Positions 38,855 through 53,540 of a stretch of 64,000 nucleotides of DNA are shown here, in pieces. A program made the translations under genes and the position numbers. The notes below the pieces were generated by a model, which saw only the letters and a list, made by a program, of their open reading frames with translations, was not told the DNA's origin and ran no database searches. Source of the stretch: Georgenia yuyongxinii (lineage in GTDB: Bacteria > Actinomycetota > Actinomycetes > Actinomycetales > Actinomycetaceae); assembly GCF_006352065.1 (NCBI RefSeq), contig NZ_CP040915.1, forward strand, positions 3,286,001-3,350,000. The letters are read 5' to 3'. Every line of letters begins with the position of its first letter. The stretch's first letter is position 1.

Positions 38855-38933
38855 AGATGTCAAGTTCTCCGCGAGATGTCATCTTCTGCGCGCCACGTGC
38901 GCGCGAGATGTCATCTTCTCGGCGAGATGTCAT
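38855..38933. repeat. Dispersed 28-bp element, two copies, upstream of pucR
   Basis: Copies at 38855-38882 (25/28 to consensus) and 38906-38933 (26/28), same orientation. The consensus is AGATGTCATCTTCTCCGCG followed by ACATGTCAT, itself a direct repeat of ATGTCAT 19 nt apart. Between the copies is a further partial unit. The element lies in the 187-bp divergent gap between mmsA and pucR. Confidence 0.85.
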
Positions 38934-39010: not shown

Positions 39011-40732
39011 ATGCCGATGACAGTGGGCCAGGTGCTGGCCACGCCGGCCGTCCAGGCCGGCCATCCCGAGCTGCTCAGCGCCGCCGACCAGCTCGACCGG
39101 CCGGTGCGCTGGGTGCACGTGTTCGAGGGCTCGGACCCCGGCGCGCTGCTCTCCGGCGGGGAGCTGCTGCTCACCACGCTGCTGGCCCTGCCGGATGATC
39201 CAGGCAAGCAGCGGCGGTACGTGCGCGCAGTGGCCGGCGCCGGGGCGGCGGCGCTGGTGGTCGAGCTCGGCCGGCGCTTCGCCCGGGTGCCGGGCGTGAT
39301 GGTGGACGAGGCCGCCGCGGCGTCGCTGCCCGTCGTGGCCCTGCACAAGGTGGTCAAGTTCGTCACCATCACCGAGGCGGTGCACGCGCAGATCGTCGAC
39401 GAGCAGCACGACCTGCTCACCTTCGCCCGACGGGTGCACGAGGTCTTCACGGAGACCGCCGTCGAGGGCGCCGACGCGCAGGCGATCGTCGAGCGGACCG
39501 CGGCGATGGCGGGCTGCGCCGTCGTCCTGGAGGACCTCGCCCACGAGGTGATGGCCCACGCCGGGGCGGGTGCCCGCGTGCTGCGGGACTGGACGGCGCG
39601 CTCGCGCGTGGTGGCCGGGTCGGGGACGCGGGAGGTGCCCGAGCACGGGTGGCTGGTCACCGACGTGGGGTCGCGGCAGGGCGTGTGGGCGCGGCTGCTC
39701 CTCGCGGGCTCCCCCGATGTACCGCCCGCGGCGGCGCGCATGCTGGTGGAGCGGGCAGCGCAGGCGCTCGCCGTCGCTCGCCTCATGGAGCGGGACGTGG
39801 CGGCGCTGCGCGCCCGGGCGCTGAACCGGTTCCTCACCGGCCTTGTGAGCGCCGGGTCTGGCGACGAGGAGGACCTGCGTGCGGCGGCCGAGGTGCTGGG
39901 CCTGGCGCGGGCGTCACGGTTCCTGGCGGTGTGCGTCGCCCCCACCCTCCCGACCGACGAGATGTCATCTTCTCCGCGACATGTCATGACGTCTCGCGGA
40001 GAAGATGACATGTCACGGAAGGGGGGTGGGGCGGCCGATCACGATCCGCTCGATGGCCAGCGGCGGGAACAGGCGCTCGCCGACGCGGTCGCCACCGCGG
40101 CGGCAACTGCGGGGCTGTCGGCGCTGACCGGACCGCTCGAGGACGGCGTCGTCGGGCTGGTGGTGGCACTGACCGAGAAGCTCACGGGTGCCGGCGCGCT
40201 CGACCGCCTGACCGCTGCGCTCAAGCCGTCGCGCACGCGCGGCCATGTGGTCGCCACCGCCCGCGAGCGCGACCGCCTCGTCCAGGCCGGCGCGGACCTG
40301 CCGGAGGCCAGCTACGTGGCCCGCGCCGCGGCGCTCATGCCGGCACCGCACCGCCAGGACTACTACCGCATCACCGATATTCGCCTCCGTGGTCTGCTCA
40401 TGCTGCTGGCCGACGACTCCCGGCTCACAGCCTTCGCCGAGCGTGAGCTGGCCCCGCTCCTCGTGCACGACGACCGCCACAGCACCGCTCTCGTCCCTTT
40501 GCTGCGGGAGTACCTCGCGGCGGGCGGGAACGTCGCCGGCCTGGCGCGGACCTCGCACCTGAGCCGGCAAGCGCTCTACGCACGGCTGCACACCATCGAA
40601 CGAGTGCTCGGCGCCGACCTGGGGGACGCCGAGACGCGCACCAGCCTGCACGTCGCGCTGCTGACCAAAGAGGTCGGCGCGCGTGGGGCAGGGAGCCCTC
40701 CACCGCCCGCGCGGGATCCAGCCGTGGACTGA
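39011..40732 (+). CDS. PucR family transcriptional regulator, with a repeat element inside the gene
   Basis: 573 aa. The N-terminal purine-catabolism (PUR) domain spans about residues 1-125 (LDRPVRWVHVFEGSDPGALL). A middle GGDEF-like region follows, and a C-terminal PucR helix-turn-helix is at about 500-560 (YLAAGGNVAGLARTSHLSRQ). It is divergent from the aminotransferase/mmsA operon, so a regulator of amine or pyrimidine breakdown is likely. Residues ~317-335 (EMSSSPRHVM, then TSRGEDDMS) are encoded by an inverted pair of the dispersed 28-bp element. The frame is kept and the insert falls in a linker. Confidence 0.85.
   Translation: MPMTVGQVLATPAVQAGHPELLSAADQLDRPVRWVHVFEGSDPGALLSGGELLLTTLLALPDDPGKQRRYVRAVAGAGAAALVVELGRRFARVPGVMVDEAAAASLPVVALHKVVKFVTITEAVHAQIVDEQHDLLTFARRVHEVFTETAVEGADAQAIVERTAAMAGCAVVLEDLAHEVMAHAGAGARVLRDWTARSRVVAGSGTREVPEHGWLVTDVGSRQGVWARLLLAGSPDVPPAAARMLVERAAQALAVARLMERDVAALRARALNRFLTGLVSAGSGDEEDLRAAAEVLGLARASRFLAVCVAPTLPTDEMSSSPRHVMTSRGEDDMSRKGGGAADHDPLDGQRREQALADAVATAAATAGLSALTGPLEDGVVGLVVALTEKLTGAGALDRLTAALKPSRTRGHVVATARERDRLVQAGADLPEASYVARAAALMPAPHRQDYYRITDIRLRGLLMLLADDSRLTAFAERELAPLLVHDDRHSTALVPLLREYLAAGGNVAGLARTSHLSRQALYARLHTIERVLGADLGDAETRTSLHVALLTKEVGARGAGSPPPPARDPAVD
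39960..40013. repeat. Inverted pair of the dispersed 28-bp element inside pucR
   Basis: Copy 39960-39987 defines the consensus. Copy 39986-40013 is inverted (25/28). Arms 39962-39979 and 39994-40011 pair perfectly over 18 bp around a 14-nt loop. Both lie in the pucR reading frame without a stop. Confidence 0.92.
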
Positions 40733-43445: not shown

Positions 43446-43473
43446 AAGACTTGTCGCGGAGAAGATGACATCT
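43446..43473. repeat. Dispersed 28-bp element, inverted copy
   Basis: 26 of 28 positions match the complement of the consensus. It lies between the aconitase stop (43504, minus) and the third LCP gene start. Confidence 0.85.
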
Positions 43474-53512: not shown

Positions 53513-53540
53513 AGATGTCATTTTCTCCGCGACATGTCAT
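53513..53540. repeat. Dispersed 28-bp element, direct copy
   Basis: 27 of 28 positions match the consensus. It lies just after the hydrolase gene (ends 53474); a partial unit (GAGATGTCAGAAGAG) precedes it at about 53496-53510. Confidence 0.9.

Follow-up and report, generated by a model that had tools for sequence, protein, structure and literature searches.

A probable in-frame insertion of a REP-like repeat dimer in a PucR-type regulator gene of Georgenia yuyongxinii and the repeat family to which it belongs

The stretch of DNA analyzed here (the window) comprises 64,000 nucleotides of Georgenia yuyongxinii (NZ_CP040915.1, positions 3,286,001 to 3,350,000) and contains a gene for a PucR-type regulator, hereafter pucR, whose features are listed together with those of its surroundings in Table 1. 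The encoded protein matches the PucR domain at residues 7–128, GGDEF_2 at residues 282–410 (barely above the cut-off), and HTH_30 at residues 494–551. Within the reading frame lies a pair of short repeat units arranged head to head, the length of which is a multiple of three bases and which encodes about EMSSSPRHVMTSRGEDDMS, corresponding to residues 317–335. The two arms form the perfect 18-bp stem (39962–39979 with 39994–40011) that had been noticed in the original prediction, and its pairing was verified.

Table 1. Coordinates of the repeat units and their host gene in the window
Feature	Position	Strand	Remark
Gene for a PucR-type regulator of 573 aa that hosts the insert	39011..40732	+	Open reading frame throughout, with domain matches
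Head-to-head unit pair, 54 bp, in the pucR frame	39960..40013	none	Absent from two orthologues
Sense unit, 0 mismatches to AGATGTCATCTTCTCCGCG	39960..39978	+	
Inverted unit, 1 mismatch to AGATGTCATCTTCTCCGCG	39995..40013	-	
Three-unit array between pucR and the divergent, minus-strand aldehyde dehydrogenase gene	38855..38924	+	Unusual site for the family here
Single unit in sense, following a minus-strand gene (30 bp from its stop codon)	43455..43473	-	
Unit in sense, following a plus-strand gene (38 bp from its stop codon)	53513..53531	+	

Among the eight other species of the genus, clear orthologues of pucR were found only in G094 (74% identity) and G126 (73% identity), at loci L032 and L033, which are the only two orthologues in the set. 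In both of them (2/2), the alignment has a gap of 54 nt, or 18 residues, at the site of the repeat pair, and the loop between the anchors CVAP/CLAP and LADA/LAET measures 44 residues here versus 26 and 25 in the orthologues, a net gain of 18–19 residues. The proposal that about 19 residues had been added in a linker with the frame kept was thereby borne out for a variable stretch of the protein, and the stretch at residues 317–335 is missing from both the G094 and the G126 proteins. The insertion at 39960–40013 is therefore confirmed. The exact break points cannot be read to the base because the orthologues are too diverged, and no target-site duplication was seen by eye. A single-sequence structure model of PucR, in which residues 303–345 are coil, was too poor for use (mean pLDDT 40.9), and a search of the protein against solved structures gave no match. 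The peptide encoded by the insert would be tolerated as a hydrophilic loop where the GGDEF-like region is variable, and the function of the regulator is probably intact despite it.

The repeat itself is abundant in this genome, which is 4.17 Mb in one contig, 98% complete and 72% G+C. When AGATGTCATCTTCTCCGCG was searched for with up to three mismatches, there were seven matches in the window, where none was expected, and 226 in the genome (107 + 119 on the two strands), compared to none for the reversed control; 160 of the 226 units were examined in context. The basic unit measures 19 bp and consists, in its family form, of the box GAGAYGTCA followed by a 10-bp spacer; its consensus in this genome is GAGATGTCATCTTCTCCGC, with the box GAGATGTCA and the spacer TCTTCTCCGC. 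Units occur singly, as head-to-tail runs that repeat every 19 bp, or facing each other head to head, and the 54-bp layout seen in pucR recurs at 11 places of the genome including pucR itself (two 19-bp arms with together no more than three mismatches). The "28-bp element" proposed earlier is not the repeating unit: it corresponds to one and a half units with two boxes. As had also been proposed, copies occur in non-coding gaps of the window, since those at 38855–38924, 43455 and 53513 lie between called genes. The box form GACGTCA contains CGTC; the unit has no GTAG tag, and the stem-loop-tail layout of the REP super-families was not found in it. No Rfam family matched at the gathering score in the window or in the loci L005, L009 and L070.

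At four loci, L105, L107, L109 and L111 (G000 positions 503034, 1878047, 581760 and 934290), the unit carries a second element, which is about 85 bp long and has two hairpins, and in the clearest case, L107, it is flanked on both sides by AGATGTCAT. This element seems to target the repeat unit, in the manner in which IS elements target REPs according to the excerpted text of PMC1525189.

The distribution of copies relative to genes was determined in a systematic sample of 844 kb, composed of 39 stretches of 20 kb and the window (the 40th stretch overlapped the window and was dropped), with genes called by a simple codon-model caller trained on the sample, a crude method whose starts and small genes may be wrong. 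The sample contained 27 clusters of units, 21 of them between called genes, four across a gene edge and two wholly inside genes, namely in pucR and a CydC-type gene; one of the edge clusters is read into by a gene for a VTT-domain protein. Thus only 3 of the 27 clusters lie in or run into genes, compared to a called-gene cover of 83% (p about 4e-16). In the larger set of fetched DNA from this genome (1.138 Mb, 27% of the genome, enriched for good copies), 137 runs of units were distributed over convergent gaps (51), same-strand gaps in sense (48) or antisense (25) orientation, divergent gaps (3), gene interiors (6) and gene edges (4). Five of the six intragenic runs are in sense orientation, and the one antisense run is the second pucR arm. 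The array in front of pucR lies in a promoter gap, a rare site given that only 3 of the 137 runs are divergent, and it might therefore affect the control of pucR.

Most runs lie close behind stop codons, at a median distance of 25 nt, with 84 of 99 within 5–50 nt. Since every run in a convergent gap has a same-strand stop codon upstream, only the same-strand gaps test orientation, and there the sense orientation was favored (48:25, p 0.01), and boxes located in 3ʹ flanks across the systematic sample showed the same bias (36:13, p 0.001). A sense box was present in only 21 of the 524 gene-end regions of that sample. The 31 runs of G126 comprise 12 convergent, 11 sense, five antisense and one divergent, and the nine runs of G133 comprise four convergent, two sense, two antisense and none divergent. 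The 34 runs of G107 include 17 in convergent gaps, five sense, five antisense and six divergent, so that neither orientation is preferred in same-strand gaps; under looser rules, the counts were 24 in sense following a stop codon, five antisense, six divergent and one intragenic. The family has no prominence in a systematic 200 kb of G107, where only two boxes were in sense behind genes, and the arrays of that species are sparse, given that this sample held just nine boxes in total. In 200 kb of G052, a comparable repeat in 3ʹ flanks was not found. Single gaps of G107 can carry long runs (14 overlapping pattern matches at L230:2500 and seven at L224:2500), and these runs are good candidates for strain-to-strain length variation.

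pucR is not the only gene with an in-frame copy. Here, CydC (TIGR02868) has a further copy ahead of the ATPase part, and others were found in a RecQ-family helicase, behind the zinc-binding part, in the C-terminal tail of the VTT-domain protein, and in a protein that we take to be TadB-like, whose codon score is weak and which matches no family. G107 contributes a membrane protein at L223, presumably TctA-like, without any NCBIfam match, whose tail holds two in-frame copies 66 bp apart. At this locus, positions 2470–2647 form an in-frame tandem duplication of 66 bp containing the coding repeat (GETSSSPREVTNSEPASPSPSP), with a period that is a multiple of three and not the usual 19 bp. Of the clear coding copies outside pucR, two are located in linkers of variable length and two in protein tails. 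A candidate at the N-terminus of the frame 3089181–3090740 was dropped for a start that is likely wrong, and gene-internal matches with four mismatches were dropped as likely chance.

All six coding cases (pucR, the four others here and L223) have the same orientation and frame, with a peptide that starts E-M/T-S-S and a first box read as E-M-S or E-T-S; the agreement covers the five intragenic sense runs here (5/5) and L223. A weaker candidate for a coding copy, L290 of G126, is read in a different frame and is a counter-example. In the consensus monomer, four of the six frames are free of stop codons, and in the consensus dimer only the one used in pucR, so that pucR itself is no test of frame sharing. 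For the five monomer genes, the same frame would arise by chance with a probability of about 0.004 if the four open frames were equally likely, indicating that chance agreement is unlikely.

The history of these copies differs in how far it can be read. The VTT protein of G126 (184 aa) aligns over its full length and has an array at the end of its gene, and the protein here is 19 residues longer, from which it follows that the frame here probably ran into an array that already existed at the gene end. The linkers of CydC and RecQ have very different lengths across species (8 and 9 genomes aligned, respectively), and these linkers are too variable for the insertions to be dated. Boxes of other dialects are found in the CydC linker of G126 (L160; four, with a 19-bp period) and of G094 (L161; two, 16 bp apart), and the CydC linkers at L160 and L161 and in the genome studied here give the picture of linker growth by repeat units.

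We then turn to the occurrence of the unit in other genomes. In a draw of 151 genomes of the family, searches with up to two mismatches yielded 178 matches here, 12 in G107 and one each in G119 and G133, and only six of the other 147 genomes had a match, each a single one. In a draw of 297 genomes of the order, which included no other genome of the genus, 25 others had one or two matches to a degenerate pattern, and more were present only in this genome. With a pattern of two boxes in which the spacer is disregarded (at most one mismatch), in a draw that did not include G126 and G133, there were 182 matches here, 109 in G107, five in G094, one in G119 and none in G022, G052 and G076; each of 114 genomes of other genera had none or one, and the reversed control likewise matched in 2 of 121 genomes. 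A related pattern with up to two mismatches gave 226 matches in G126, 17 in G133, 12 in G094 and three in G119, and again none in G022, G052 and G076. Overall, the family is rich in three of the nine species, sparse in three and undetected in three, and its observed range is limited to some species of a single actinobacterial genus. Records of plasmids and phages gave no match, and among viral contigs two stretches had one two-box match each. In a collection of genome contigs that may lack near relatives, the exact 19-mer was present in three stretches, two of Anaerocolumna and one of Nesterenkonia, which by our own estimate is about the chance level for that much DNA. No description of such a repeat turned up in searches of open-access papers, part of which relied on an assumed genus name.

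Each species writes the unit in its own dialect. The consensus is GAGACGTCA-AGTTGGGCGC in G126, GAGACGTCA-AGTCCTCCGC in G107 and GAGACGTCA-CGTCCTCGGC in G133, based on unequal samples (162 units here, 87 in G126, 97 in G107 and 19 in G133, a few of them counted twice from overlapping loci). Between different loci, the spacer identity was 0.77 within this genome, 0.62 to G107 and 0.41 to G126, and the corresponding box identities were 0.95, 0.85 and 0.87. The positions of the arrays are nevertheless often shared by different dialects: considering orthologues within the fetched DNA of this genome, an array is also present here for 12 of 20 array-bearing genes of the relatives, compared to 6 of 74 array-free genes (p 3e-6, or 6e-7 when a threefold G133 gene is counted once). 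By region, about 10 of 16 array-bearing regions of the relatives have an array here (including L234 of G094 and L225 of G107), from which it follows that a large part of the family is ancient or targeted and not freely mobile; the fetched DNA is enriched for arrays, so that the raw shared fraction overstates the true one, and the contrast within that DNA stands. Five orthologous pairs of arrays between G126 and this genome had spacer identities of 0.20–0.52, no better than unrelated loci; the G094 pair had 0.40 (unrelated 0.39) and the G133 pair 0.60 (unrelated 0.54), while three pairs with G107 reached 0.66–0.90, above the 0.62 of unrelated loci. In the pair L258/own2964001, both arrays have four boxes in register with all spacers different (identity 0.20). 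Either each genome rewrites its spacers jointly, or arrays insert again and again behind the same genes.

The folding of the transcribed repeat depends on its arrangement. The RNA of an ideal 60-nt dimer has a minimum free energy of -54.4 kcal/mol (z -12.6), and a single 23-nt unit forms a weak bulged hairpin of -7 kcal/mol (z -2.4). Gene-end regions with units in both orientations had a median folding z of -7.75 (22 regions), versus -1.61 for sense-only (67), -1.52 for antisense-only (20) and -0.41 for control regions without units (120 drawn). As sense and antisense singles fold alike and modestly, they are not explained by an RNA hairpin specific to one orientation.

We favor the view that a REP-like repeat persists at gene ends, where it may act, and is spread by recombination or a putative transposase. 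Copies would spread when dispersed units recombine or undergo gene conversion with one another, or alternatively through a putative transposase acting in trans; gene ends would be the places where copies survive, possibly because transcribed units, with strong hairpins when paired, terminate or protect the transcript or serve as binding sites for a protein. The original prediction had further likened the pucR copy to the mobile palindromes of Rickettsia. A dispersed element in frame is indeed present, and of the two outcomes named there as speaking against it, neither was obtained: the orthologues without the repeat do not have these residues, and the copy number in the genome exceeds that of the control. 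The basic form, however, is a 19-bp unit with an orientation, and only the head-to-head form is a palindrome. The mobility fared less well with the two transposase families covered, Y1 and IS21, and with the many gene-end positions common to sister species. A Y1 transposase (PF01797) was found in none of the nine genomes of the genus, by which mobilization of the RAYT/Y1 type was rejected; IS21 gave only three fragment matches in this genome, none above the cut-off and none with units in its locus, by which an IS21 origin was rejected.

A different account of the family, which is compatible with the insertion reading for pucR, is that the units are functional gene-end sites, with boxes bound, as DNA or RNA, by a protein of the genus whose effect is to end, block or protect transcripts; such sites would be kept at gene ends, the dialect would drift jointly in each species, and the coding copies would be by-products. 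We regard this as a real possibility, although we lean against it. It accords with the 19-bp period, with the stronger conservation of the box than of the spacer relative to G126 (0.87 vs 0.41), with the placement close behind stop codons, sense-favored here and in G126, with the sharing of positions above expectation (12/20 vs 6/74), and with L258 and its counterpart here, which look like one array in register with four boxes each and different spacers. However, few gene ends carry a sense box (21/524), the same-strand gaps of G107 lack an orientation preference, three pairs with G107 retain spacer identity above the unrelated level, and no candidate for the protein was identified. Units were not found in G022, G052 and G076 either, and they are therefore dispensable for the genus. 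A more far-reaching version is doubtful, and we put it forward only tentatively: well over 100 arrays would be genus-limited gene-end sites that keep many of their positions behind the same genes across species, while their spacers would be rewritten together in each species in concert with a putative reader, and time and again such arrays would have been taken up in a single frame as coding linkers or tails.

Some transposons carry several transposase-binding sites per end. The tandem boxes might accordingly be such sites in remnants of transposon ends, solo or paired, whose inside has been lost as in MITEs, an idea that concerns the origin of the family and is likewise compatible with an insertion in pucR. 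The opposed runs look like left and right ends, and copy number differs strongly between species. On the other hand, a full-length parent was not seen, nor was a target-site duplication, and the units are absent near the IS21 fragments. A long MITE-like parent was considered and rejected, the four forms of about 120–144 bp being units that carry the second, 85-bp hairpin element. We consider this origin unlikely.

For pucR itself, the segment might be an old part of the protein that was lost in the orthologues and not gained here, which the variable length of the loop and the small number of orthologues (two) would allow; it is missing from both of them, though, and it is near-perfect repeat DNA in the dialect of this genome (0 and 1 mismatch) that is mostly extragenic elsewhere, making such a loss very improbable. 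An assembly or chance artefact, for which no supporting point was found, can practically be dismissed given the one-contig genome of 98% completeness, the absence of control matches, the kept frame, and the related coding copies in other genes and in a second species. We consider it probable that the feature in pucR is an in-frame insertion that arose in the line of this species and consists of one head-to-head dimer of a REP-like family.

Repeat insertions inside proteins are best known from Rickettsia. The palindromic elements of these bacteria (RPEs) are, in the excerpted text of PMC10969869, about 150 bp long and nearly half within ORFs, and are described as hairpin-capable repeats that lie in frame in unrelated genes and give a recurring peptide. 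As a kind, the present repeat is like them in the in-frame insertion into an otherwise intact gene, absent from orthologues, as seen in pucR, and in the recurring peptide with one frame across genes, with the exception of L290 in G126. It differs from them in consisting of 19-bp units and short runs for which a palindrome is not needed, in having only 3 of 27 sampled clusters in or into genes, and in residing in a genome of 72% G+C. REPs are, in the excerpted text of PMC3733652, high-copy elements between unidirectional or convergent ORFs, near the 3ʹ end of the upstream ORF, that form head-to-head dimers and have some intragenic copies, repair genes among the hosts; head-to-tail dimers are negligible for CGTC REPs there. 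Our family resembles REPs and BIMEs in being short, high-copy, mainly extragenic and located behind genes, with head-to-head dimers, but differs from GTAG/CGTC REPs in its oriented unit, weak hairpin, lack of a GTAG tag and 19-bp head-to-tail runs, and from RAYT-mobilized REPs in the absence of a Y1 transposase from the nine genomes. With MITEs and solo IS ends, it shares the short, non-coding nature and the opposed arms of the dimer form; it departs from them in that the number of tandem units varies and neither a target-site duplication nor a parent element was seen. Taken together, the family is REP-like and the RPE analogy holds for the insertion, and the family is set apart from both by its oriented 19-bp unit, the lack of a REP tag and of a Y1 transposase, and its dialect pattern.

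With these results, a high-G+C actinobacterium whose genome measures 4.2 Mb joins the bacteria with protein-decorating repeats. The results also add a family that often sits behind the same genes in different species, yet in different dialects. Two questions thereby come within reach of a test: the way in which small repeats that lack a known transposase spread and remain similar inside one genome, and a possible action of gene-end repeats on the ends of transcripts.
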